From: Candidatus Eremiobacterota bacterium
GTDB taxonomy: Bacteria > Vulcanimicrobiota > CADAWZ01 > Ess09-12
Direction of reading: 5' to 3'
NCBI GenBank assembly: GCA_031082125.1
Contig: JAVHLM010000009.1
Span: 83,111 to 125,644 of the forward strand
Length of the DNA: 42,534 bases
Numbering within the stretch: the stretch's first letter is position 1; each line of letters starts with the position of its first letter. Below the pieces are notes generated by a model. It saw nothing but the letters and a program-made list of their open reading frames with translations, had not been told where the DNA came from and made no database searches. A program made the position numbers and the translations under genes. Of the stretch, positions 6,757 through 37,203 are shown one piece after another.

Positions 6757-9700
6757 ATGATGGATTATCTCTTCTCTGAAGAGCTCCACGAGCTCGATGA
6801 CGATGTCTCGAAAGTCATCGCCCTTGAGGATGAGCGGCAGTTCAGGAAAATAATCCTCATTGCCTCCGAGAGCATGTGCCCCCTCCCTGTAAGGATGGCT
6901 CTGGCCACAAGCTTTGTGAACATCTATGCCGAGGGCTATCCCTCCAACAGGCTCATAAGAGAGACCACAGACAGGCTGCCAGACATGGCTCTTCAGCTCT
7001 CCTACCTGAGAAGATACTCCGACAGGCGTTATTACAAGGGCGTGGAGTACGTTGACTTCATCGAGGCTCTGGCGCAGAGGAGAGCGGCCCGCGTTTTCGC
7101 TACCGAAAAGACCAGGGCCGAGGATATCTTCGTCAACGTGCAGCCCCTTTCCGGCGCCGCTGCCAATAATGCAGTCTATGAAGCCTTTCTGAAGCCGGGC
7201 GACACTGTCATGGGCATGGACCTCACCCATGGCGGCCACCTCACCCACGGCAGCCATGCAAACCGCTCAGGCAAAAATTATACCATCATCCCCTACCATG
7301 CGAACTATGAAACGGGGGAGATCGATTATGGAGAGCTTTCATCGCAGGCCCTGAAGCACTGCCCCAAAATGATCATAGCAGGCTACAGCGCTTATCCCAG
7401 GGTTATTGACTGGGCAAGATTGAAGGAGATCGCGGGTTCTGTGGGAGCCATTCTTCTTGCCGATATTGCCCACCCTGCAGGGCTCGTCGTGGCAGGCTCC
7501 TTCCCCAGCCCTGTGGATTACGCCGATGTCATATCCTTCACCACCCACAAGACACTGTGCGGCCCCCGCGGCGCAGCCATTATCACCACCTGCGAGGAGT
7601 ACGCCCAGAAAGTTGACAACGCCGTATTCCCCGGAGAACAGGGAGGCCCTCACGTCAACAGCATTGCGGCAAAAGCGGTCCTTTTCAAGATCGCTGCCAC
7701 GGAAAAATTCAGGAGCCTCCAGAGGCAGGTCCTGGAGAACTCAAGGAAAATGGCCGGGACCTTCAAGGCCCTCGGGGCAAAGCTGGCTTATGGCGGCACA
7801 GACTCCCACATGTGCCTGCTGGACTTGAGAGACATAAAAGGCCCTTATGGCTTCAACCTGAGAGGCGAAGTCGCCTCCCGGATCCTTGACATGTGCGGCA
7901 TCACGTGCAACAAGAACACCATCCCCGGGGACACAAACGCAGTTCACCCGGGAGCGCTCCGCTTCGGCACCACGTGGATCACCCAGAGAGGATTCAAGGA
8001 AAATGACGTGGAGAGGCTCGCCACCCTTATCTATGAGGCGATCTCGGCGATGAAGCCCTTCAGGTACATTGAGACCCAGGGCGATGTGGCCAGGGCCAAG
8101 GTGCCCCTCAAGGTCATGGAAGAGACTGCCAGGGGGGTCCAGGACCTCATCAGGAGCGTCAACGGTGACTCTTCGCTCCCCCGCCGCCATTATCCCTATT
8201 ACTCTCCCCTTGATGGGAGGGCCTGGGAATGGGAAACGCCTCTTCTTGGCCTCCACAGGGCAGAGAAGGCCAGAATCGAGTCTTTCAACGGCTGCGCGCT
8301 GCCCCTCTATTACAAGGATCCCGGCGAGGCAGCAGGCTGGAACGACAGGACTTCCCTCATAGACGGCAGTGACTCTCTCCTCATTGAAATCCAGGGCGAG
8401 AGAAGCACTTTTTTCCTGGAAGAGCTCACTACAGGCACCATTGTCACCCTGGCGCCCTTCCAGTCCATCCAGACCCTGCTCCTGGAAAGTGAAGGCGCCG
8501 TCACAGACGATGTGACTGTCACAAGGCTTCCGGGAGAGGGTGAGGAGACACGGTACATTGTCAAAACCAACGCAGTGAACAGCAAAAAGGTCCTCACGCT
8601 CCTGCGGGCTCTCTCCGACGGCTATATCATCTATGACAGCAAGGAACTGTACGGCAAGATCCAGGGCCCCGTTGTCGTTGAGAGCCTCAGGGACTGCAAT
8701 GAAAGCTCAAAGCACCTCATGGTGCTGAGCCTGCTGGGCAGCGACGCACTGAAAGCGCTTGAGAGCTGCGGGCTTGCAGCGGTTTTCCCCGAGGGCAGGC
8801 ACTGCGTAGAGGTGCAGGCTGGATCATTCAAGGTGCTGGTAAATAAGATCCAGGCAGGCGGCACCCTTGCCGGATGCGACCTGCTGGTCCATCCCCGCCA
8901 TGCGGAGAGCCTCTGGAAGCTCATCATTGAAAAAGGAGGGAAGATTGGGCCCGCCGGCCTTGTCGTGAGGGAAAAGGCCAGGGCGGAGCATGGCCTTCCT
9001 GATTACCGCGCCGCCGTAAAGGCCCAGGATCTTTATCAGTCGGTGCTGAAAGAGAGCTTCACCATCACCAAGCCTTATTTCGTGGGCCAGAAGCACCTTG
9101 CAGCAGGCCTGGACCTCGCCTCCTCAAAAACACACTTTGAGTTCAGCGGCGGGGAGAGCGGCAGTCCCCTCCAGCGTACGAGCCTTTACGATGAGCATAA
9201 GAAGCTCACTAAAAAGATCGTCCCCTTTGCCGGCTACGAGATGCCCGTGTGGTACACCAGCATCAACGAGGAGCACAGGGCGGTGAGGGAAACGGCGGGC
9301 CTTTTTGATGTGGCCCACATGGGAGTCCTGGAGATAAGCGGCCCCAATGCCACGAGGTTCCTGGATCTCGTCACCACCAATTACGTCCCCAAGCTCCTCC
9401 CCGGCCAGTCCCATTACTCCTATGTCCTTGACTCCAGGGGAGACATCCTTGACGACGTCATGCTCTACCGGCGTGGACAGGACCTCTATATGCTCATTGT
9501 AAACGCCGTGAACGCGGCGAAGATTGATGCCTGGCTCACAGGCATCATAGAGGGGAAGTATATCCTTGACGACGAAATCCCCGTCAAGTCCCTCAACTTC
9601 GGGGTATCGCTCAGGAACCTCAAGGACCCCGGGCACGGCGATGCATGCCGCGTGGACATGGCTCTCCAGGGCCCCAATTCCCTCCTCACCATCCTCCAGC

Positions 9701-18398: not shown

Positions 18399-21300
18399 AT
18401 GGCAAAAGAGCTATCAGACAAACCGGCACAGACGGAAGGCCAGCTCTTTGATCTGGTCTACCGTGACGATCTTACGGGCCTCCTCAACAGGAGATTCTTC
18501 AGGGAGCAGATTGATAAAGACAGCCAGGCTCTCAAGGAAAAGCCCGGTGATTATTCATTTCTCATGTTCGACATAGACCACTTCAAGAGCATCAACGACG
18601 GCTACAGCCATCAGGAGGGCGACGTGGTGCTCAAGGAGGTGGCAGAGCTCTTCAGGGACTCCATAGGCGAGAAAGGGCTTGCCATAAGGTATGCCGGCGA
18701 CGAGTTCGTGGCCCTTCTCCCGGGGCTCCCGAAACCGGAAGCGAAAGACCTCGCCCTGGAATTGAAAAACATTGTCTCTTCACATTCCATTCATCTCCCC
18801 TCGGTGAACGAATCCCTGAGAGTCACCCTCAGCATCGGTGTGGCCCACTGCCCCGATGACACGGCACACGCACAGGAGCTTGTACAGCTTGCCGACGAAG
18901 CGGCCTACATAAGCAAGAAGAAGGGCAGGAACTCTGTCTCGACAATAGACGAGAAGAGAACGGAGGATATCGAGGTCCGGTTCCTTCACCGCTACTTTCC
19001 CTGCAAGAAATTCGTGGGCCGCGAGGAACTGGTGCAGCGCCTCAAGAGGCTCGCCCTCCCCACATCGTCGGAAAGCAAGCCCATCGTGATGATAGAAGGC
19101 CCCCACGGCATAGGAAAATCAAGGCTGCTCTCCGAAATTGCCCAGGCTTTCGACCCCGTGAGGAATCTCCACCTCCGCTGCCATTGCCAGCACATCACGG
19201 CGGCCCAGCCCTTCTGGGAGGTCACCGACACCCTCAACAGGAAGCTTACCGAAGCCCAGGAGCTTGCGTCTACAGTGGCAAACCGCCTCAGCAGGCAGAA
19301 GCTCCGAGAGATAGTTCCCCTTATGCCGGTTTTTGCCCCTTACTATGTGCAGCCGGCGGAAGGACCGGAAATATCGGCACAGCAGCGCAAGGAGATTCTG
19401 CTGGAGGCCATTGAAGAGGTCTTTCTCACTATCAGCGAGAATAAACCCCTCGCCATAAGCATTGATGATTTCCAGTGGTCCAACCTGGGGACCCAGATGC
19501 TCATCGAGCGCCTCAAATCCAACCCGAAAGCCGACAGGATCCCCATCTTCATCTCCCTCAACAGTGATGAGCTTCTTGCGTCAAAAGACACTGATCTCCT
19601 TGAATACCTGAGGCGCCTCGAGGAGAAATCGGTCATGACGCGCTACAGGCTTGAAATGCTTGAAAAAGATGAAATCGAGAAGCTTGTGGCATCCATCATA
19701 CCAGGCCTTGAAGTGAACAAGGATGTGGTAAAAATAATAAGGGAGCGTTCAAAAGGCCTTCCGCTCCTCGTGGAAGACATCATCAAGCTCCTGATATACA
19801 GGAATATCATCCATACCCGCGAGGGTGTCCTTATCGTCGAGCCCTTTGAGGCAGATTCGATCCCCGTCAATATCGAGGAAGCCTTCAACCCAGGGATACA
19901 GCAGCTTGACGAGGAGGTGAAGGGGCTCCTCTGCAGGGCCTCCGTGATAGGGGAGCGCTTCAATATCGATCTTCTCAAGCAGGTGGACGGCAGGAGCGAG
20001 GCCTTTGTGCAGGACATCCTGGAGAAAGCCCAGAAGGCGGCCCTTATCACCAACGATCCCATCAATGAGCCGGACACTTTTATTTTTTCCAGCAATAAGA
20101 CCCATTCCAGCGTCTATGAAAGCATCACAGACGATGAGAAAAAGGTATACCACAAGCAGCTCGCCGAGATAGAGTGGCAGATCCACAAGGAAGAGATCGA
20201 GACAGTCCTCTCGAAAATCGCCTATCACTTCAAGCAGTCCGGCGACGAGGCGAAAGCCCAGCAGTATTTCAACCAGCTCCTTGGGAACTACGAGAACTTC
20301 CTGTCGCCGAAAGTCATCGAGCTCTATGTGGGAAGAGCCCCCGTGAAGAAGGAATGGGAGAGCGAGAAGGAGCTCACCGAGGAGGAAGAAGCCCTCGCTT
20401 TCCAGTTTCTCAAGCTCATCCAGATCACCCTCGGCAACCTGCAGAACTTCCCGATCGAGAGCGAGATTGTGAAAGGCTCCTTTGAGAGCACATACTGGGA
20501 GCTCAAAAAGCTTTTCGAAAAGATTGAAATCGTCACCTTTTCCGACGGCGACGGCGAGCTGCTCATCAACAGCAAGCGCCCTTCATCATCGGACAAAGAC
20601 AGGACGAGCGAGGAAAAGTTCCTGCAGGCAATCAGCAAGGCCGGCCTCAAGGGGATCACCATCAAAAAGGAGATCACCAAGGAGCAGTTCCTCAGGTTTC
20701 TGAGAATGGTCATCATTGAAAAACATGACGACATTGAGCAGAAGGGGGGCTGGACAGAAGTCCTTACCCGTGAGGGCATCACTTCTGTCATTACCAACGA
20801 GCGCATATTCATCTCCGTTGCCGAGCGCGATCTCTTCGACCCGAAGCGGCTCAAAGAAGAGGTTGTCGTTATCAAGAAGATAGAGACGGAAGACAATGCA
20901 CCGCCCTCTCCCCTCACCGAAGGAGAACGGCGGGAACAGGCTTCGACCATTGCAGGAAATATTTACGAGCAGCTTCAGCAAATCAAGGAAGGGGTCCTCA
21001 AGGATGAGAGCCTTGGTGAGGATGTTGAGAAAATAAGGGATCTTCTGGAAAGGATTTTCGAAAAGCACGTAGGCATAGAAAAGCTCATAGAGAGCATCAT
21101 GCCCCGTCTTGGGCAGGAGGAGGCCCCGGGCCTGTCAGCGCCTGGGAAAGTCCCTTACTCCCAGACCTATGAGCCGCATTCGGAGACCATGGGAGAGCTT
21201 TCAATACTTGTCAGGAAGCTTGACATTCTCACCTTTGCCAAGTTCCGCGTGGAGCCTGAATTCCTGGTCAAAGACCTCGAGTCAGGCGATGATGAGATCT

Positions 21301-22130
21301 CGTCCTCATCGGCCGTCGCGCTGGGCAAGAAGGGACAGGAATCCATCCCCGCCATTATAAGCTTCTTGAAGGCCACTGAGAGCCCCCTGGGAAGAAAGCG
21401 GGCCTTCCACCTTCTCAAGAGACTTGCACCCAGGGCCGAACAGCTCCTCATAGACGATCTCATGGGCGCCACCTCAGCCGAGGAAAAGAAGCATATAATA
21501 GAAGTGCTCCACGACTCGGCAGGCATCGATATTCTCGGGGCGCTCAGGTATTACCTGCGGAGCCCCCAGAATGAAGTGCGCCAGGCGGTGATAAACCTTC
21601 TCTGCTCCCGCCCCACGGACAAGACAGAGGACCTGCTCCTGGAAATACTCAATGACCCTGTCACCGAAGAGAACCTTCCCATTGTGCGCGATGTGATAGA
21701 AGCCATGGGAAGGATGAAGATGACAAGGGCCGTAGAGCCTCTCTCAAAGATGCTCAGGAAGAGGGATATTCTGCTCTATGACGTGTCCCATGAGGTCCAG
21801 GAAGCGGCCTGCCTGGCACTTGGAAAGATTGGAAGCCCCGAGTCACTTCCTCATCTGATAAGAGCTGTCAAGAAAAGCCCCTTCTATTTCCTCATGCGCC
21901 TTAAGGCTGCAAGGGTGAGAGCCGCCGCAGCGTTCGCCCTCAGCGCCTTTCCTTCCCAGGAAGTGAAAGCCCTCCTCAGGGAAACGGCAAAGGACCCCCT
22001 CCCTGACGTGCGCTCGGCGGCTAGCCTGGCCCTTCATAACATAGAGATGGAAGGGGCTCTGCCGAAGCTCGACAAGCCCATCCTTGCAGAGGAGCCACCT
22101 GATAAGCCTGACAAGGGAAAAAGAGGCTGA
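18399..22130 (+). CDS. GGDEF diguanylate cyclase - STAND-type ATPase - HEAT repeat protein
   Basis: The product has 1243 residues and no membrane segment. Residues about 16-185 are a GGDEF domain: DDLTGLLNRRFF, MFDIDHFKSINDGYSH and the signature RYAGDEF at 97-103. AGDEF is a variant known from active cyclases. No RxxD inhibitory site is seen before it. Residues about 205-520 are an AAA/STAND ATPase with FVGREELVQRL, Walker A GPHGIGKSR (234-242) and Walker B LAISIDDFQWS (Asp356/357), as in MalT/AfsR-type switches. A central helical region with FSDGDGELLINSKRP follows. Residues about 950-1230 are HEAT-like repeats (VREAAC-type units such as EVQEAACLALGKIGSPESLP). This suggests a soluble nucleotide-switch that makes cyclic di-GMP on a protein signal. 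No ribosome site is seen before the ATG. It ends two bases from convergent glgB. Confidence 0.88.
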   Translation: MAKELSDKPAQTEGQLFDLVYRDDLTGLLNRRFFREQIDKDSQALKEKPGDYSFLMFDIDHFKSINDGYSHQEGDVVLKEVAELFRDSIGEKGLAIRYAGDEFVALLPGLPKPEAKDLALELKNIVSSHSIHLPSVNESLRVTLSIGVAHCPDDTAHAQELVQLADEAAYISKKKGRNSVSTIDEKRTEDIEVRFLHRYFPCKKFVGREELVQRLKRLALPTSSESKPIVMIEGPHGIGKSRLLSEIAQAFDPVRNLHLRCHCQHITAAQPFWEVTDTLNRKLTEAQELASTVANRLSRQKLREIVPLMPVFAPYYVQPAEGPEISAQQRKEILLEAIEEVFLTISENKPLAISIDDFQWSNLGTQMLIERLKSNPKADRIPIFISLNSDELLASKDTDLLEYLRRLEEKSVMTRYRLEMLEKDEIEKLVASIIPGLEVNKDVVKIIRERSKGLPLLVEDIIKLLIYRNIIHTREGVLIVEPFEADSIPVNIEEAFNPGIQQLDEEVKGLLCRASVIGERFNIDLLKQVDGRSEAFVQDILEKAQKAALITNDPINEPDTFIFSSNKTHSSVYESITDDEKKVYHKQLAEIEWQIHKEEIETVLSKIAYHFKQSGDEAKAQQYFNQLLGNYENFLSPKVIELYVGRAPVKKEWESEKELTEEEEALAFQFLKLIQITLGNLQNFPIESEIVKGSFESTYWELKKLFEKIEIVTFSDGDGELLINSKRPSSSDKDRTSEEKFLQAISKAGLKGITIKKEITKEQFLRFLRMVIIEKHDDIEQKGGWTEVLTREGITSVITNERIFISVAERDLFDPKRLKEEVVVIKKIETEDNAPPSPLTEGERREQASTIAGNIYEQLQQIKEGVLKDESLGEDVEKIRDLLERIFEKHVGIEKLIESIMPRLGQEEAPGLSAPGKVPYSQTYEPHSETMGELSILVRKLDILTFAKFRVEPEFLVKDLESGDDEISSSSAVALGKKGQESIPAIISFLKATESPLGRKRAFHLLKRLAPRAEQLLIDDLMGATSAEEKKHIIEVLHDSAGIDILGALRYYLRSPQNEVRQAVINLLCSRPTDKTEDLLLEILNDPVTEENLPIVRDVIEAMGRMKMTRAVEPLSKMLRKRDILLYDVSHEVQEAACLALGKIGSPESLPHLIRAVKKSPFYFLMRLKAARVRAAAAFALSAFPSQEVKALLRETAKDPLPDVRSAASLALHNIEMEGALPKLDKPILAEEPPDKPDKGKRG

Positions 22131-29041: not shown

Positions 29042-29350
29042 GGCTTCCGCCCCTTTCTTGTAGCTTTCCCGGGTAAATCCCGGCACCGGGAGAAAGGTGC
29101 CGGAGGGTACCAGTATTTCAAGAATCGTATCGATAATTCCTGTTATTCCCTATGGCAGCAGGCAGGCGGCCGGTCACAGAGGACCCGGCCCGCGGGAGAG
29201 GCGCCGTAGAGGGTATAATGCCCAAATGTTAACAATTCTTTTACATCACCTGCAGCGTCTCATGCTTTACTTGATGGCGTACTCATGTTACCATAGGGTT
29301 GAAGGGGTCTTACCCCCCGTATCCATGATTTTATGCCGGGAGCAAAAAGC
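29042..29350. other. Divergent intergenic region between pgi and the heptad-repeat gene
   Basis: About 310 bases without a gene. It holds the 29080-29103 hairpin, an isolated TATAAT on the plus strand (29214-29219) without a good -35, and a five-base GGGGT/ACCCC stem (29304-29316) just before the plus-strand gene. No ORF or RNA gene could be supported. Promoters for both giant genes and pgi should be here. Confidence 0.5.
29080..29103 (-). promoter_or_regulatory. Hairpin in the probable pgi leader
   Basis: CCGGCACC and GGTGCCGG form a perfect eight-base stem around an eight-base loop, 39-62 bases upstream of the pgi ATG. On the minus strand the 3' arm could also pair with a nearby CCCGGG (29067-29072), so two exclusive structures are possible, as in attenuators. 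Function inferred only. Confidence 0.45.
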
Positions 29351-31360
29351 ATGAACCCTGTCAGCGGGAGCTACCAAGATTACAGCGGTCTCCCCGTTAC
29401 CCCCCAGCCTCCCCAGAAAGCCCCTCCCGATGGCGCCCAGGGGCCTTCAGGCTCACTTCTTGATGAGACTGACGTGTACCAGGCTTCAGCTCTGCTGAAA
29501 GAGAAGGGCAAGGAAGAGGCAAAAAGAGGCCAGGACCTTGCCGCCGCGGGAGAAAAGAAGGTTGACGCCGGCATCGAAAATATCGGCAAGGCCGCCGAGC
29601 TCAGTGAAACCGGGGAGCAGGAGAAGGCAAAAGCAGAGAAGCTCCTTTCCAAGGCAGGCAAAAAAGAAGCCCACGGAACAAAGCTCGTCCAGGAAGGCCT
29701 GGCCCAGAAAGAGAAAGGAGCCGCCAAGGAATCCCGGGGCATTGCCCATATCCGCGAGGGAATCCTCATGGATGAGGAAGGCGACAAGGCAAAGCGCAAG
29801 GGAATAAGAGGCGTCGAGTGCGGCCTGAGGAGAGAGGACAAGGCGGAAGGGCTCCAGAAAGAGGGCGTTACCTTTATCACCCAGGGAATCTTTGAAGAGG
29901 AACAGGCCGAAGCGGTAAAACAGCAGAGCATTGGCACGATAGAAGACTCCATAGGCAAGGGTAAAGAGGCGGAGCTCAAGGAGAAGGAGGCCCTCAGTGG
30001 CCTCCAGGACGGAGCTGACAAGGAATCGAACGGGATATCGCTCAAGGACGAGGGCCTCTCCCTTTACAATGAGGGCCTGGAAAAGACCACGCAGGGCGAA
30101 GCCCTTCTCAGCCACGCAAAAGCCGATTTTCAGAAAGCCCAGGACCTTGAGGTTGACGCAAGAGACAAGGCCGTGCAAGCCTCATATCTCAAGGAGGGCG
30201 CCGCAGGCAAAGAAAAGAAGAGCGTCGAGGTGATGAACGAGGCGCAGAACCTCTGGAATGAGTCCGAGGTAGTAGCGGCAAAGGCCAGGGAAGCCCTTAA
30301 GGTGGCTGCAAAAGACCGTGCCATGAGGGAAAAGCTTTACCAGGAAGGCCAGTACTGGTACCAGAAGGGCTACTGGGACTACATGCAAAGCTCATATTTC
30401 TTCTGCTGCCCCTTCTTCTATTACGGGGGATGGGGAATGAACCAGCAGGCCATGTGTGAGATGCAGCATGGCATCCAGCTCCTGAACCAGGCCAACGCCT
30501 ATGGATCCCATGGAGCCCAGATGGAAGCCCAGGCCCAGGAGCTCATGCGCAGGGCTGAGGATATGAAAAGGCAGGCCCTCGACAAGGAAAAAAAGGCACT
30601 TTCCCTCAAGGCTGAAGCGAAACAAGACAGGCTTGAGGCACAGAAGCTCACCTCAGAGGCCCAGGAAGAGATGGATTCGTCCTACGCTTACAAGCTCCAG
30701 GCCAGGCATGAGCATGAAGAGGGCCAGGCCCTCACCGGCCAGGGATCGCAGCTCAAAGAAGAAGGCGAAGTCCTGATGGAAGAAGGAATCGATCTGGCCC
30801 AGGAAGGCAGAACCATACAGGAAAGCAATATTGCCGGTTTCCAGGAAGGGCTTGACGCGGAAAAAACCGCCGCGGAATCGGGGCAGGAAGCGCGGGGAGA
30901 TATCGGGGAAGCCTTCGCTCAAGAAACAAAGGCCCATGCCGCAGAGCGGCGGGGAGTAAGGAAATTCAGAAAGGGCCTCGCCCTCGAGCAGGAAGCAAGA
31001 ATCAAGGAGCAAGAGGGTCTCTCATCGATAAAGCTCGGCTTCAAAACATCAAAAAAAGCCCGGGAGCTTGAGCAGAAGGGAATAGGCGAGATACAGCGGG
31101 GAATACTCACGGAAAATCGGGGGAGGGTAAAAGAGAAAGAGGGACTGGCCCGCCTTGAGGAAGCCCGGAAGCTCAAAGTTTCCGGTGACAGCCTCGCGGC
31201 ACAGGGCGCCGCCCATACCTCCGAGGGACTGGAACTTGAACTGCAGGCCTATAAGGAGATTACCGAGGGCCTCCAGGCCCAGAAGGCCGGCAAGATCATC
31301 CAGGACAAGGGAATGGAGTACCTCCGCATGGCCGATGAAGCCGAAGAGAGCTCTCGGTAG
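29351..31360 (+). CDS. Giant small-residue heptad-repeat protein (predicted helical hairpin)
   Basis: The product has 669 residues and matches no family I know. Residues 1-45 are a Pro/Gly-rich head. Residues 46-346 are 43 uninterrupted heptads, such as GLAQKEK, GIAHIRE, GILMDEE and AELKEKE; the first position is Gly, Ala or Ser in all but one. Residues 347-373 are a turn rich in Tyr, Phe, Trp, Cys and Gly (SSYFFCCPFFYYGGWGM). Residues 374-667 are 42 more heptads, such as GEVLMEE, GIDLAQE, AQKLTSE and GILTENR, with one exception (Asn). Composition is Glu/Lys/Gln/Ala/Gly-rich. No signal peptide is seen. Arms of 301 and 294 residues around a turn suggest a long antiparallel helical rod. The start at 29351 is preferred because GGGAG lies eight bases upstream; an ATG at 29333 is in frame. 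The TPR/FlhA-like gene follows 17 bases later. Confidence 0.85.
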   Translation: MNPVSGSYQDYSGLPVTPQPPQKAPPDGAQGPSGSLLDETDVYQASALLKEKGKEEAKRGQDLAAAGEKKVDAGIENIGKAAELSETGEQEKAKAEKLLSKAGKKEAHGTKLVQEGLAQKEKGAAKESRGIAHIREGILMDEEGDKAKRKGIRGVECGLRREDKAEGLQKEGVTFITQGIFEEEQAEAVKQQSIGTIEDSIGKGKEAELKEKEALSGLQDGADKESNGISLKDEGLSLYNEGLEKTTQGEALLSHAKADFQKAQDLEVDARDKAVQASYLKEGAAGKEKKSVEVMNEAQNLWNESEVVAAKAREALKVAAKDRAMREKLYQEGQYWYQKGYWDYMQSSYFFCCPFFYYGGWGMNQQAMCEMQHGIQLLNQANAYGSHGAQMEAQAQELMRRAEDMKRQALDKEKKALSLKAEAKQDRLEAQKLTSEAQEEMDSSYAYKLQARHEHEEGQALTGQGSQLKEEGEVLMEEGIDLAQEGRTIQESNIAGFQEGLDAEKTAAESGQEARGDIGEAFAQETKAHAAERRGVRKFRKGLALEQEARIKEQEGLSSIKLGFKTSKKARELEQKGIGEIQRGILTENRGRVKEKEGLARLEEARKLKVSGDSLAAQGAAHTSEGLELELQAYKEITEGLQAQKAGKIIQDKGMEYLRMADEAEESSR

Positions 31361-31377: not shown

Positions 31378-34300
31378 ATGAAGCCCGCCCCTCCGGACAA
31401 CACTCACATGAATCCTCCATCCCACATTGAAGAGCGAAGACTACGGCAGATCATCCAGGAGAATCCCCGTGACAGCTCGGCTTTTTACAGGCTCGCCCTG
31501 CTCTTGGAAGACCACCACTCCTATGAAGATGCCCTTGCCACCCTGAAGAAGGCCCTTGCCATTGATCCCGCTTTTAACAAGGCCTTCACCCGCTCGGTGA
31601 TGCTCCTCCACACCACAAGCGGAAAACGGCGGGGGAAGTGGATTTTCACCACACCCTCGGGTGCCGAGCACCCGGGAAAAATGCCGGTTCTACCCGACGA
31701 ATGCCGCTTCAGGATGTATGAAAAAGGGAGCGAGGTGCTCCTTGTTCCTTTCATGCAGCGCTTTGGAAAGGCTGCGCAGTTCCTTGACGAGGGAAGAGAG
31801 GAGGAATGGAAAGCCCGCCATCTTCCTGAATCCTTCAGGGAAAAAGCGATCCTCACCTTCCGGAAGGCCCCCCCCCCTGGAATCTCTCTCGATGCCTCTT
31901 CCCTCACCGTGGAGCTGGGCACCGATTTCAGGGATCTCTTCAGGGATATCTCGCTGAGAGCCGTCCATCTCACGGAGCGCTTCAGGAAAGAGAAGGGCAT
32001 TGCCCTTGCCCCCCCTGCATTCAGAGTCACCAGGTCCCTTCCCGCCGACCGCTTCAGGGTGATTTCGGGGCCTTACCTTCTCGGCCAGGGGGGCATAAAA
32101 AAAGACCATCTTCTTGCCGCCAGGGAGCATCAATCGGCGCCGCCGTCACTTGTACCCGGTGTAGACACCTCCATCGATGCCCTGGGCCTCAAGGGAAGGT
32201 GGATCGGCAGGGAGGGGAAGAAGCAGGCTGAGAGCGAGGGTTTCCACGTATTTGAGGCCATTCCCCTTATACTGGAGACCGCATACCGCCTCATGGAGGA
32301 CCATCTTGATCTGCTGTGGAGCGAGAGCCACACGGGGCGCTTCATGGAGTTCCTCAGCAAAGAGAGGCCCCGGACTCCCTGGAAAACCCTTGAAACCACC
32401 CTTTCCCTGGCAGCCCTCACGGGCCTCATAAGGCATGCCCTGCGGGCAGGCGCCGCGCCGGCAGAGCTCCCTTACTGCCTGGAGCACCTCATCGAATCGG
32501 CTCATGACGATGAATATTCCATGGCATGCCTGCTCTGGAATCGCACTGTCGATCTCGAGGGAATACGCATGCTCGCCCAGAAAGGGGCTTTCCAGGCACT
32601 TTCAATCGCTCCGCAGCTTGAAGAAAACCTTCTCATATTCCTGGGCACTCATGGTGACGAATCAGTCGGTGATAAGCTCTTTCCCTTCTCCACGGTGCTT
32701 GATCAGCTCAGAGACCTGTCCTCAAAAATCCTGCAGCTCGGAAAAAGACCGATGCTGATCTGCGATTCATTCCTGCGGCCTTTCATTTCGGAGTGCATGA
32801 GGATCTTCCCAGAGCTCCTTATTCTCTCAAAAGAGGAAGCCTCAATAATTCCCCCGCAGCAGATTTTTTACGAAATCAACGAGCACCCCCTGGCCCTCAG
32901 GGCCGCAGCGCACCAGCATGTCGAGTCGGCCCTCTCATTCTACCCGGCACCTTCCGGGAATAACCCTTTTCAGGACAGGGACAGGATTTCCTTTGCCTCC
33001 TTCTTCAAGGAAGAGGAGAGGCTCCTGGTGGATATCGAAGCGGCAATGATAGAGCGGTGTGAGGCCATGAGCACCGTCCTCATATATTACCAGGAGATGG
33101 GATACCGCTACGAGGGCCTCCTGTCTGCCAGCGTCACCGGCAGCGAAGGAGGAGTCCACGAGCCCGCGGAGTTCGTCCAGTCCTCACCTTTCAGCGTGGA
33201 GCTCGGCCGGGCCTATGCCCCCCTCCTGGCAAACAAGGAGGAGCTGAAAAGGCATGTTGAAGGCATGCGCTCCCTTTTCTCTGAAAAGTACTCGGTGATA
33301 CTTCCTGAAATCCATTTCCACGTGGACCCTGCGATGGAAGAGAGCACTATCTCCCTGCTGTTCAGGGGAAAACCCCTTTTTTACTCCACCATGCAGGACA
33401 ATCCCGCCCTTACCCACATCCTCGGCGGTGAAAAGATCGTGGAAGACCCAATAGAGGCTTTCATGGCAAGCCTCGCCCTGGTGATGGAGAACCACCTCGC
33501 GGATTTTATTGATTATGAGATCACCGCTGATTTCCTGGAGAGCCTGAAAGGAGCCTGTGAAGGCGGTGCCGAAGCGCCTGTTGAGAGGGTAGCCCCGGTG
33601 CTCAGATCGCTTTTCGAGGAGAAAGTGCCCTGCAGGAAAAAGGACTTCATCGCGGCAGAAATCGAAAGCCTCTCCAGGAAGGGCGCCTCCTGCGGTGAAA
33701 TCGTGGAGAGCATCAGAGAAGGCCTGAAGGAAGAGCTGCTTGAGCCCTTTCTCTCAGAGGAAAAGAGGCTTCCCGCTGTTCCCCTTGGCGATGACATGGA
33801 GATTATCCTGAAATCGCCTCTTTTCGAGTATCTGTTTGATGGCCAGGACGCCTCCTGCATGAAAGAAAGAGACTACATCGCCGAGCTCATAGCGAAAGAA
33901 TACGAAGCGACGCCGGGCAGCAGAAGAAAGCTGCCCATCATGTGCACAAAATCTCTCAGGAAGCCTCTTTTCCATCTTCTGAAGCCCTGGCTTCCCGGTG
34001 TGGTCATTCTGTCACGAGATGAGGCTGCCGGGAGCGAGATTCAGCCTGCAGGCGTCATAGAAGCCTCAGAGGGTTTCAGGAAATTCATCTTTGACGAGAT
34101 CCTCAAGCAGGGCATTCTCTCTGACCACTCCCACCTTGAAAAGGAGCTGGCGCGGAAGCTCACGGAGCTTCTGGAGCACCAGGAAAAGGAGCACGGGGAG
34201 GAGGAGAAGGCAGAGAGAGAGAGAGACTTCATCACCATCACCATGAACCCGGTCTTTTTTGAGAGCCTTGGAGGCGAAAGGGATAAGACGGGGTTCTCCT

Positions 34301-37203
34301 CCACCATTCTCTTCCTCAGGGAATGGCTGGGGAAGGTGACGGGAAGAAAGGTCCCGCAGGTCCTCGTGGCACTTGATGACGAGGCCCTTCCTGAGCAGGC
34401 TGAGCTCTCGCCTGGCACCGGCAGGACCCTCCGCATCACCATACCCCGGGGATGCGCTCTCAGCTTCTCCAGGGGGATACAGGGCTTTGCAGGCTCATCG
34501 GTGCCGCCTGCACCGCCGTGCCTGCAGGGCTGCTGGCATGAGGAAAAAATCCCCCGGGAACAGAATGACCGCATTCAGGTCAGCGCCCTCGAATATATCC
34601 TTCTCGCCCTCTTCACCCTTCTAAAGAACAGGCTCTGCCAGGCACCCCTCGCGGCAGGGCAGAAGAAAAATCTGCAGCGCAGGGCTGCGGAGTGCGGCCT
34701 GATGGAAGACGATAGTGAAGCGGTCCTTCATATGGCAGCCACGGCCGCCGATATCCATCCCGCCCAGGTCTGCGGCGCCCTTTCGCCCGGCATGGCACTT
34801 GTCCTCGGCGACAGGGGTCTCAAGGAGAGAATTCTCGAGCTCCTGTCACCGGTACGGGAGGCCTCTCTCAATGCTGAAGGCGGGATCCTGCACGCGGTCG
34901 TCGCAGAAGACGATCTCGCCGCCTTTCTGCGCGGTTACATGCGCGAGGCCTCACCGCAGGAGATTGAGCGCTTCCGCCCCCCCTCGCTTAAAAAAGTGGC
35001 CGGGGCCTTCGCTGCTTCCCTGCTGCGTCTCCTGCGGACAGGACGCCGCGCGGTGGCCGTTGTTCCCTTCGAGCTTGAGCCGATGCTGCAGGGCCTCCTC
35101 GCCTCCATTGTTCCCCAGGCTATAGTGCTCCCCAGGGAGTTCATATCAGCTAAGACCTTGATTGAGCCCTTTGAGACAGTCCCTTACAAGATCCTTTTCG
35201 CTCCCCTGGAAGACGAGGAGGAGACCGGTCCAGAAACTTTCACCATCGCTCTTGACGAGTTCTACCTTTTCCTGGCCCTTCTTGCAGATGAGAAGGGTGA
35301 CACGGAAAAATCAGGGCATTTCTGCGAGGCTGTCACAGGCTTCTTCCCCTTGCACCCCCTTGCCCTCTGGCGGAATGCCTTTTCCCTCCAGAGGAGGGGA
35401 AACCGCGACGAGGCAGCAAAAACAAGGGAGATGGCTCTCCGCGCGCTTCCCGAGCTGCCCTTCATCGATCCGGCTTATTATATGCCTGAAAGCGCCAGGT
35501 GGGAGAGCGAGAAGGCCTTCCTGGAGGCGTCAATGAGGGAAGCCCCCCTGCCTGTCCATCAATACCGCCACCTCTATTGCACTTTCATGGAGGGCGCGGC
35601 CGGGGACAGCCTCAGTATTCCCCATGAGCTCTTCGACAGTCTTCCCTTTGATGACGAGCTCCTCGTCCTCGCGGGGAACATTGCGGGCGACAGGGAAGAC
35701 TACCGCGATGCCCTTGCATGGTACAGGAAAGCCCTTGCATTGAACGGGAGCAACAGGGAGGCACTGAGGGGATGCGCAGGAGCCCTCGCAGAGGACAGTG
35801 AATTTGAAAAATCCTGGAAAATCTACCGAACACTTGCAGGGGAGAGCCCCTTCGATGACAGGATGCTGTATGACAGCGCAATGGTCCACATGGACAGGGA
35901 GGATTACCACTCGGCGCTTGCCTGTGCAGAGACCATTCTCGCCATGGACAGTGAAAATGCCGATGCCTTCTTTTTGAGAGGCCGCTGCTGGGGAAGCCTG
36001 GGGAAGACATCCAGGGAAATAGCGGACCTTACAAGCGCCCTGGTCCTTGAGCCTGACAACATTCTCTTTAACCGCACCATGGGGGAGCTCCTCTGGCAGT
36101 CAGGCCTTTACCAGGAAGCGGAGCCATACCTGCTCAGCGCCTTCAGGGTATATCGGGAGAGCCCCTTTGCGGCGATCCACAGGATAAAGATACTTCTCAT
36201 GCTGGGCGACATCTCCTCTGCCATGAAACTGACAGACGAAGCCGCGGAACAGTCGGGCTCGCCGCCTTCAGCACTGCTCCACCTGCAGGGGGAAATCTCG
36301 GCATTGCTGGGCTTCCGGGAAAAAGCCGGTGAATGCTTCAAAAAAGCCCACGGCATCAACAGGACAAACCCTGTCTATGCGATGAGTGTCGCCGAGATGG
36401 CCTGCCTCGACGGAAGACTTGACGAGGCCGCGCAGATCTACCGGGAAGCCCTCCAGAGAAATCCTTACTGGGTCAAGGCCTCACATGCGCTGGCCCTCAT
36501 AGCCTCAAGAAAAGGTGACGTTGAAGGCGCCAGGAAGCAGCTCAGGAGCGCCATGAGCTATTCCCCGGGCACCCCTGAGCTTTATGCCTCATACTTCTCT
36601 CTCCCCCCCGCCGAAGGAGAGCATGGCATGTGGGCAGAGCTCCAGAGGGAGCTCATCTTTCTTGACCCCCTCAACTATGGCGCCTATTACTGCCTCTCCC
36701 TTCTCTACGCCCTGCAGGGGGATTTTGACAGGGCCCTCGGCGAGGCGGAGCGCGCCTTTCTCATCGCACCGGACCATCATGCCATCGTGGAACAGCTCTG
36801 CCGCATGCACATGGTGAAAAGAGACGGCAAGCGCGCCCTGGTCATCCTGAGGGTCGCCCTCAAGAAGATCACCCGCTCCGAGAGGCTCTGTTTTATCGAG
36901 GGTATGTGCTGGAAATCCATAGGAAGCCTTGAGCGGGCCCGTGAGAGCTTTCTTAGCGCTTCGCGCCATGGTCCCCTCACGCCTTTTGCTGCCGTATCGA
37001 GGGGATATGCGGCCCTCATCGGCGGAAAAGCCATTGAGGCAGCCGCTGAGGCAGAAGGGGCGCTCCTGGGGGACAGCCGCTTCTCTCCCGCAATGGTGCT
37101 TATGGCGGAAATCAAGCATTCCTCCGGGGAAGGCGACGAGGCGGAATCTCTGCTGGCGAAGGCACTTAAAAGTGATCCCGTGAGATCCTGGGGACTTTTC
37201 TGA
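31378..37203 (+). CDS. Giant TPR protein with three tandem FlhA cytoplasmic-domain-like modules
   Basis: The product has 1941 residues and no membrane segment. Residues about 15-75 are TPR (AFYRLALLLEDHHSYEDALA). Module A (about 165-505) follows the FlhA/FHIPEP C-terminal domain in order: LTVELGTDFRDLF, FRVTRSLPADRFRVISG, KKDHLLA, PGVDTSIDALGLKGRWIGRE, KQAESEGFHVFEA and, at 457 onward, RPMLICDSFLRPFISE then FPELLILSKEEA. Module B (about 600-895) has FSVELGRAYAPLLA and LPIMCTKSLRKPLFHLL then LPGVVILSRDEA. Module C (about 950-1275) has DFITITMNPVFFESL and VAVVPFELEPMLQGLL then VPQAIVLPREF. Residues 1290-1941 are roughly a dozen more TPRs (YRDALAWYRKALALNGSN, LDEAAQIYREALQRNP). In flagella and injectisomes this domain forms a nine-membered ring that receives chaperone-cargo complexes. 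No other export gene is in the window. No strong ribosome site precedes the ATG, so coupling to the upstream gene is likely. Confidence 0.85.
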   Translation: MKPAPPDNTHMNPPSHIEERRLRQIIQENPRDSSAFYRLALLLEDHHSYEDALATLKKALAIDPAFNKAFTRSVMLLHTTSGKRRGKWIFTTPSGAEHPGKMPVLPDECRFRMYEKGSEVLLVPFMQRFGKAAQFLDEGREEEWKARHLPESFREKAILTFRKAPPPGISLDASSLTVELGTDFRDLFRDISLRAVHLTERFRKEKGIALAPPAFRVTRSLPADRFRVISGPYLLGQGGIKKDHLLAAREHQSAPPSLVPGVDTSIDALGLKGRWIGREGKKQAESEGFHVFEAIPLILETAYRLMEDHLDLLWSESHTGRFMEFLSKERPRTPWKTLETTLSLAALTGLIRHALRAGAAPAELPYCLEHLIESAHDDEYSMACLLWNRTVDLEGIRMLAQKGAFQALSIAPQLEENLLIFLGTHGDESVGDKLFPFSTVLDQLRDLSSKILQLGKRPMLICDSFLRPFISECMRIFPELLILSKEEASIIPPQQIFYEINEHPLALRAAAHQHVESALSFYPAPSGNNPFQDRDRISFASFFKEEERLLVDIEAAMIERCEAMSTVLIYYQEMGYRYEGLLSASVTGSEGGVHEPAEFVQSSPFSVELGRAYAPLLANKEELKRHVEGMRSLFSEKYSVILPEIHFHVDPAMEESTISLLFRGKPLFYSTMQDNPALTHILGGEKIVEDPIEAFMASLALVMENHLADFIDYEITADFLESLKGACEGGAEAPVERVAPVLRSLFEEKVPCRKKDFIAAEIESLSRKGASCGEIVESIREGLKEELLEPFLSEEKRLPAVPLGDDMEIILKSPLFEYLFDGQDASCMKERDYIAELIAKEYEATPGSRRKLPIMCTKSLRKPLFHLLKPWLPGVVILSRDEAAGSEIQPAGVIEASEGFRKFIFDEILKQGILSDHSHLEKELARKLTELLEHQEKEHGEEEKAERERDFITITMNPVFFESLGGERDKTGFSSTILFLREWLGKVTGRKVPQVLVALDDEALPEQAELSPGTGRTLRITIPRGCALSFSRGIQGFAGSSVPPAPPCLQGCWHEEKIPREQNDRIQVSALEYILLALFTLLKNRLCQAPLAAGQKKNLQRRAAECGLMEDDSEAVLHMAATAADIHPAQVCGALSPGMALVLGDRGLKERILELLSPVREASLNAEGGILHAVVAEDDLAAFLRGYMREASPQEIERFRPPSLKKVAGAFAASLLRLLRTGRRAVAVVPFELEPMLQGLLASIVPQAIVLPREFISAKTLIEPFETVPYKILFAPLEDEEETGPETFTIALDEFYLFLALLADEKGDTEKSGHFCEAVTGFFPLHPLALWRNAFSLQRRGNRDEAAKTREMALRALPELPFIDPAYYMPESARWESEKAFLEASMREAPLPVHQYRHLYCTFMEGAAGDSLSIPHELFDSLPFDDELLVLAGNIAGDREDYRDALAWYRKALALNGSNREALRGCAGALAEDSEFEKSWKIYRTLAGESPFDDRMLYDSAMVHMDREDYHSALACAETILAMDSENADAFFLRGRCWGSLGKTSREIADLTSALVLEPDNILFNRTMGELLWQSGLYQEAEPYLLSAFRVYRESPFAAIHRIKILLMLGDISSAMKLTDEAAEQSGSPPSALLHLQGEISALLGFREKAGECFKKAHGINRTNPVYAMSVAEMACLDGRLDEAAQIYREALQRNPYWVKASHALALIASRKGDVEGARKQLRSAMSYSPGTPELYASYFSLPPAEGEHGMWAELQRELIFLDPLNYGAYYCLSLLYALQGDFDRALGEAERAFLIAPDHHAIVEQLCRMHMVKRDGKRALVILRVALKKITRSERLCFIEGMCWKSIGSLERARESFLSASRHGPLTPFAAVSRGYAALIGGKAIEAAAEAEGALLGDSRFSPAMVLMAEIKHSSGEGDEAESLLAKALKSDPVRSWGLF

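Follow-up and report, generated by a model that had tools for sequence, protein, structure and literature searches.

The cytoplasmic domain of FlhA (FlhA-C) is normally regarded as inseparable from the membrane export gate, and a multi-helix N-terminal FHIPEP membrane domain is the hallmark of both FlhA and SctV, the injectisome gate protein (InvA, CdsV, EscV). Soluble FlhB C-domain proteins of the FlhX/YlqH type provide a precedent for a membrane-free copy of a cytoplasmic domain of this gate. In known systems FlhA-C assembles as nonamers (PMC8213127), and flagellar chaperones bind the FlhA cleft between subdomains D1 and D2 via Asp456 and Phe459 (PMC5932034).

We analysed a window of 42,534 nt, by which we mean the whole stretch of DNA under study, from Candidatus Eremiobacterota bacterium (GCA_031082125.1, contig JAVHLM010000009.1, positions 83,111-125,644; genome of 7.43 Mb in 69 contigs, 97.6% complete). 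It encodes a giant soluble protein whose unusual architecture, three FlhA-C modules (A, B and C) between tetratricopeptide repeats (TPRs), is confirmed here and marks one extreme of a phylum-level expansion of soluble FlhA-C. Compared with FlhA (PDB 6ch1, 3a5i), module A spans D1-D4 and module B spans D1, D3 and D4, and FlhA is the top PDB sequence match of A as well as the top fold match of C. The giant differs from FlhA in having no membrane domain, three copies per chain and flanking TPRs, in the absence of D2 from B, and in an altered chaperone cleft. The same differences separate it from SctV, whose fold is also among the PDB matches of C; the whole protein scores higher on the NCBIfam FlhA equivalog (111 bits, below the cut-off of 772) than on the SctV model (40 bits). 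The FlhX/YlqH-type proteins are small and contain an FlhB domain in one copy. With TPR adaptor and assembly proteins of the MamA, PilW and PrsT type the giant shares TPR arrays at either end, but its matches fall far under the cut-offs of these families, which are not defined by FlhA-C.

Architecture of the giant protein

The features of the giant, in window coordinates, are as follows.

31378-37203, + strand: giant soluble protein of 1941 aa, comprising TPR, FlhA-C modules A, B and C, and a TPR array (ORF scan, Pfam, FlhA-C HMM, hydropathy)
31477-31572, + strand: N-terminal TPR, aa 34-65; the TPR_20 match spans aa 20-76 (Pfam)
31882-32883, + strand: module A, complete FlhA-C, aa 169-502, cleft residues altered (D456 to I, F459 to L) (FHIPEP, HMM, PDB, hhalign)
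32884-33153, + strand: A-B linker, aa 503-592 (comparison with the N-terminal domain of C31, see below)
33154-34065, + strand: module B, D2-less FlhA-C, aa 593-896 (FHIPEP, HMM, hhalign)
34210-35187, + strand: module C, very likely a strongly diverged FlhA-C, about aa 945-1270 (HMM, shuffles, hhalign, AlphaFold2)
34846-35187, + strand: detectable part of module C, D4, aa 1157-1270 (custom HMM)
35665-37200, + strand: C-terminal TPR array, about aa 1430-1940 (Pfam, NCBIfam)

The reading frame starts with ATG and is uninterrupted over 1941 codons. GC by codon position over the whole frame is 0.62/0.43/0.69, and every module as well as the neighbouring genes has similar values. Pfam FHIPEP (PF00771) matches the protein with 122.1 bits (gathering cut-off 29.1), and this alignment begins near position 324-330 of the 657-position profile. 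Both this start and hydropathy indicate that the membrane domain is absent: 0 windows of 19 residues have a mean hydropathy of at least 1.6, compared with six in the true FlhA of the same genome. The original prediction, three FlhA-C modules in one frame with no membrane helices and with TPRs on either side, is thereby borne out, the modules by FHIPEP, a custom HMM and hhalign (C also via AlphaFold2), the missing helices by the hydropathy scan, and the repeats by Pfam, whose C-terminal TPR matches cover about aa 1430-1830.

Modules A and B are readily recognised. A reached 59.6 bits in the FHIPEP search of the genome, with E 4e-16, and the scores for B were 48.8 plus 19.5 bits. Our custom FlhA-C HMM, built from 29 relatives with the giant excluded, matched A over aa 169-502 at 91.7 bits and B over aa 593-672 at 12.6 and aa 685-896 at 52.2 bits. 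Against a reference of 32 FlhA-C sequences, hhalign returned E 1.1e-17 for A and E 1.5e-16 for B, in which D1, D3 and D4 were aligned and D2 was deleted, and a PDB sequence search with A placed FlhA on top (E 7e-11). Module A had been thought to track the FlhA C-terminal domain throughout, and HMM and hhalign indeed cover D1-D4. Judged from these alignments, the identity of A and B as FlhA-C appears certain; D4 and D3 are the best-kept subdomains of the fold in the giant.

Module C has diverged much further, with 11-18% identity to the FlhA-C family. The custom HMM detected only its D4 (aa 1157-1270, 11.7 bits); the segment alone scored 15.0 bits, where 5000 shuffles peaked at 4.8 and the reversed sequence gave -3.0. 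The hhalign match is likewise restricted to D4 (E 0.0023, probability 12%). An expected FHIPEP match was obtained for A and B, each above the cut-off in the genome search, but not for C, which Pfam did not detect. For C, AlphaFold2 gave a model (pLDDT 76, pTM 0.52) that is only partly independent, as its input alignment included FlhA-C rows. The 50 PDB matches listed for this model are all C-domains of FlhA or SctV, the best with E 5.6e-14, prob 1.00 and TM about 0.36, in agreement with the fold that had been predicted, but the low TM and high rmsd mean that the subdomain arrangement is not reproduced. From profile and model together, C is very likely a strongly diverged FlhA-C.

Soluble FlhA-C proteins in the genome and the phylum

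In what follows, G000 is this genome, C with a number denotes its contigs or genes, and G and L with numbers denote genomes and loci. The FHIPEP search of G000 yielded 15 match rows, corresponding to 10 genes with FlhA-C, six of them soluble; there were 3 FlhB matches. The membrane-type genes are a full flagellar FlhA on C6 and three FlhA-like genes with a membrane part (C1:233200, C38:10127 and C1:155409), whose diverged products have no FlhB of their own. Besides the giant, the soluble genes are:

L012:8913-10286 (G000:C31): 458 aa, FlhA-C behind an N-terminal domain of about 85 aa
L016:9093-10376 (G000:C41): 428 aa, FlhB cytoplasmic domain fused to D2-less FlhA-C; also in L127, L128, L129 and L131
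C56: 384 aa, FlhA-C
C6b: 954 aa, ankyrin plus FlhA-C
C2: 1323 aa, FlhA-C plus TPR array

Profile matches across Eremiobacterota, the phylum within which we searched, indicate that the giant is part of a phylum-wide set of membrane-free FlhA-C proteins. FHIPEP match rows in relatives number up to 16, versus 1-5 for FlhB, and the large genomes of one family (f12) have 10-16 versus 2-3. Soluble FlhA-C occurs there with TPRs (L061, L062), with C2H2 zinc fingers (weak matches in L063, L066 and L069), and joined to a FliG_N-like domain (L060, L064-L067, L070, L071 and L078), a fusion that unites two flagellar parts in a single soluble protein. D2 is missing not only from module B but also from other soluble members (C41, L070, L127-L131). 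Separate FlhA-C genes adjoin in L073 (1-bp gap), L060 and L071, so tandem copies do arise in the phylum, and such side-by-side genes are a likely intermediate toward fused tandem modules. Among the open-access papers searched, a coverage that leaves subscription journals mostly outside, no paper on soluble FlhA-C paralogues was found; within that literature the phylum-level expansion seems to be undescribed.

Two of the soluble families are conserved. C31 is present as a single copy in each of 26 of the 56 genomes, across nine GTDB families, and forms a clade with SH-aLRT 99. The C31 neighbourhoods examined lie outside export operons, with RNase PH, SIS-domain and MutL genes among the relatives' neighbours, and its presence shows no association with that of flagellin in the 56 genomes (8/18/12/18, Fisher p 0.58). 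Query matches of C31 came from UBP9, Eremiobacterota or plain bacterial MAGs, and one labelled Burkholderiales is probably mislabelled. The N-terminal domain of C31 found no PDB match under E 0.16. The A-B linker of the giant bears a weak likeness to this domain (score equalled by 1 of 3000 shuffles; hhalign E 0.19), and sequence comparison gave no match for the region before A; a C31-like domain ahead of every module was rejected, as the hint is confined to the linker.

The second family, the C41-type FlhB-C/FlhA-C fusion, occurs in several families (G000, G008, G018, G044 and G038; G050 is similar by sequence). NPTH is the autocleavage motif of FlhB; by eye, it is replaced in all of these fusions, for example by VNGDE, LSDWD or LAPGR. 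G000 also encodes a 109-aa soluble FlhB C-domain protein near rod genes on C10. Detached and multiplied FlhA-C combined with TPR, ankyrin, FliG_N, zinc-finger or FlhB-C domains would represent natural separation-of-function variants, which let one ask which gate parts form the ring, bind cargo or respond to FlhB, and the conserved fusion could serve as a direct tool for studies of FlhA-FlhB communication.

The giant itself has no orthologue in 149 genomes of the phylum or in GTDB contigs. Its modules sit on long branches (A 2.2, B 3.5 and C 5.4 changes per column). The tree joins A with the TPR paralogue C2 (support 92-93) and B with L076. Both groupings carry a long-branch warning, A shifts once C2 is removed, and the tree does not place any of the three modules.

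Possible roles of the detached modules

Cleft positions were mapped through an alignment of the FlhA of G000 with the Salmonella chain. The Asp456/Phe459 positions are Ile/Leu in A and a gap in B, where D2 is gone, and C has no recognisable motif, a mapping no better than its 15%-identity alignment. Most other soluble paralogues retain the [DE]P.[YF] cleft motif, and the C31 clade has Arg at the Gly460 position. With the cleft residues lost, binding of export chaperones in the established way is not expected of the giant, and its sequence makes a classical chaperone receptor unlikely.

G000 was found to encode a flagellum-type export apparatus when we looked for flagellar or injectisome genes: FlhA, FlhB, FliO, FliP, FliQ, FliM, FliG, three FliF/YscJ proteins and rod/hook proteins. 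A role of the giant outside secretion, as originally suggested, can therefore not be concluded. No flagellin matched in G000 at E 1e-3, although contigs may be missing, and flagellin is present in 20 of 56 relatives. The apparatus may be a flagellum-derived exporter that builds no classical filament; alternatively, divergence may have put its filament protein beyond detection.

Our tentative proposal, at a little under even confidence, is a soluble scaffold or adaptor role for the giant, which has retained the FlhA-C fold and is possibly tied to the flagellum-type export apparatus. Three detected modules, no membrane helix and lost cleft residues argue for this reading, as do soluble paralogues with interaction domains (TPR, ankyrin, FliG_N, FlhB-C), the excess of FlhA-C over FlhB matches, an export apparatus in the same genome, the adjacent FlhA-C genes, and the recurrent loss of D2. 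The cytoplasmic domain of FlhA would have been duplicated with loss of the membrane part, multiplied to three copies and fused with TPR arrays; its fold would have survived, most clearly in D3/D4, but not the cleft that binds chaperones. The modules could then act as assembly or docking surfaces and the TPRs could hold partner proteins, most likely at the cytoplasmic face of the export apparatus or in a regulator derived from it. Scaffold role, partners and export link are what we infer from these features. Against them stand the missing orthologues and the gene neighbourhood, which offers no link to export genes: these lie on C6, and the giant's neighbours are metabolic or without assigned function. 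Most soluble paralogues, moreover, keep the cleft motif, so the giant may be atypical.

The modules might instead serve the gate itself. As an accessory of the export gate, one or more of them would bind to the ring of membrane FlhA, or to its membrane-type paralogues, and adjust which substrates are chosen or when. The nonamers of FlhA-C described above would accommodate this, and it is in keeping with one typical and three diverged membrane-type FlhA proteins in G000 alongside one full FlhB, and with a soluble FlhB-C/FlhA-C fusion conserved in several families. Since the modules are very diverged (C at 11-18% identity to the family, B without D2), we consider such a role possible, yet rather doubtful. 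Slightly less probable still is a broader scenario, in which Eremiobacterota detached the cytoplasmic half of the gate (FlhA-C and FlhB-C, with FliG_N) and built from it their own soluble non-secretory or regulatory system, with the giant's modules contributing to a free-standing ring or scaffold. A ring of nine modules from three chains of the giant, as originally suggested, would be a speculative counterpart of the known nonamers; our results neither favour nor disfavour it.

The very long branches on which all three modules sit, the missing D2 of B and the lack of orthologues would also fit a fossil in decay, in which a TPR protein carries FlhA-C insertions that are inert and degenerating. 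We regard this as improbable, given 1941 unbroken codons, normal codon-position bias in every module, and a fold detectable in all three. At least as improbable is a soluble chaperone or cargo receptor acting through the FlhA-C cleft, the function originally suggested. TPR scaffolds are common among T3SS chaperones, aa 1451-1560 match TIGR02552 weakly (42.8 bits, far under the cut-off of 104.8), and most soluble relatives, though not the giant, keep [DE]P.[YF]; the FlhA mechanism is not borne out, however, by Ile/Leu in A, the deletion in B and the unrecognisable motif in C. Chance or convergence, for which the 12% hhalign probability of C by sequence alone could speak, can be practically dismissed, being refuted for A and B by E values of 1e-17 and 1e-16 and opposed for C by a score above all 5000 shuffles and by FlhA-C as its sole good fold match.

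Neighbouring genes

One gene lies directly ahead of the giant and likely shares its transcript:

29333-31360, + strand: helical repeat protein of 675 aa, ending 17 bp before the giant (ORF scan)

This protein consists of two long helical repeat arms about an aromatic, Cys-rich centre (YWYQKGYWDYMQSSYFFCCPFFYYGGW). It has relatives in 18 other genomes at 23-33% identity, mostly over the full length, and a paralogue on C6. As a clue to the giant's function this partner was rejected, as its relatives are not beside FlhA-C genes in 14 neighbourhoods from other genomes. Elsewhere in the window (18399-22130), a 1243-aa protein combines GGDEF, an AAA/STAND-like ATPase and HEAT repeats. At another locus, L009, Tubulin-like (Tubulin_2) and WD40 genes (1-1281 and 7045-8343) are situated close to flagellar export genes.
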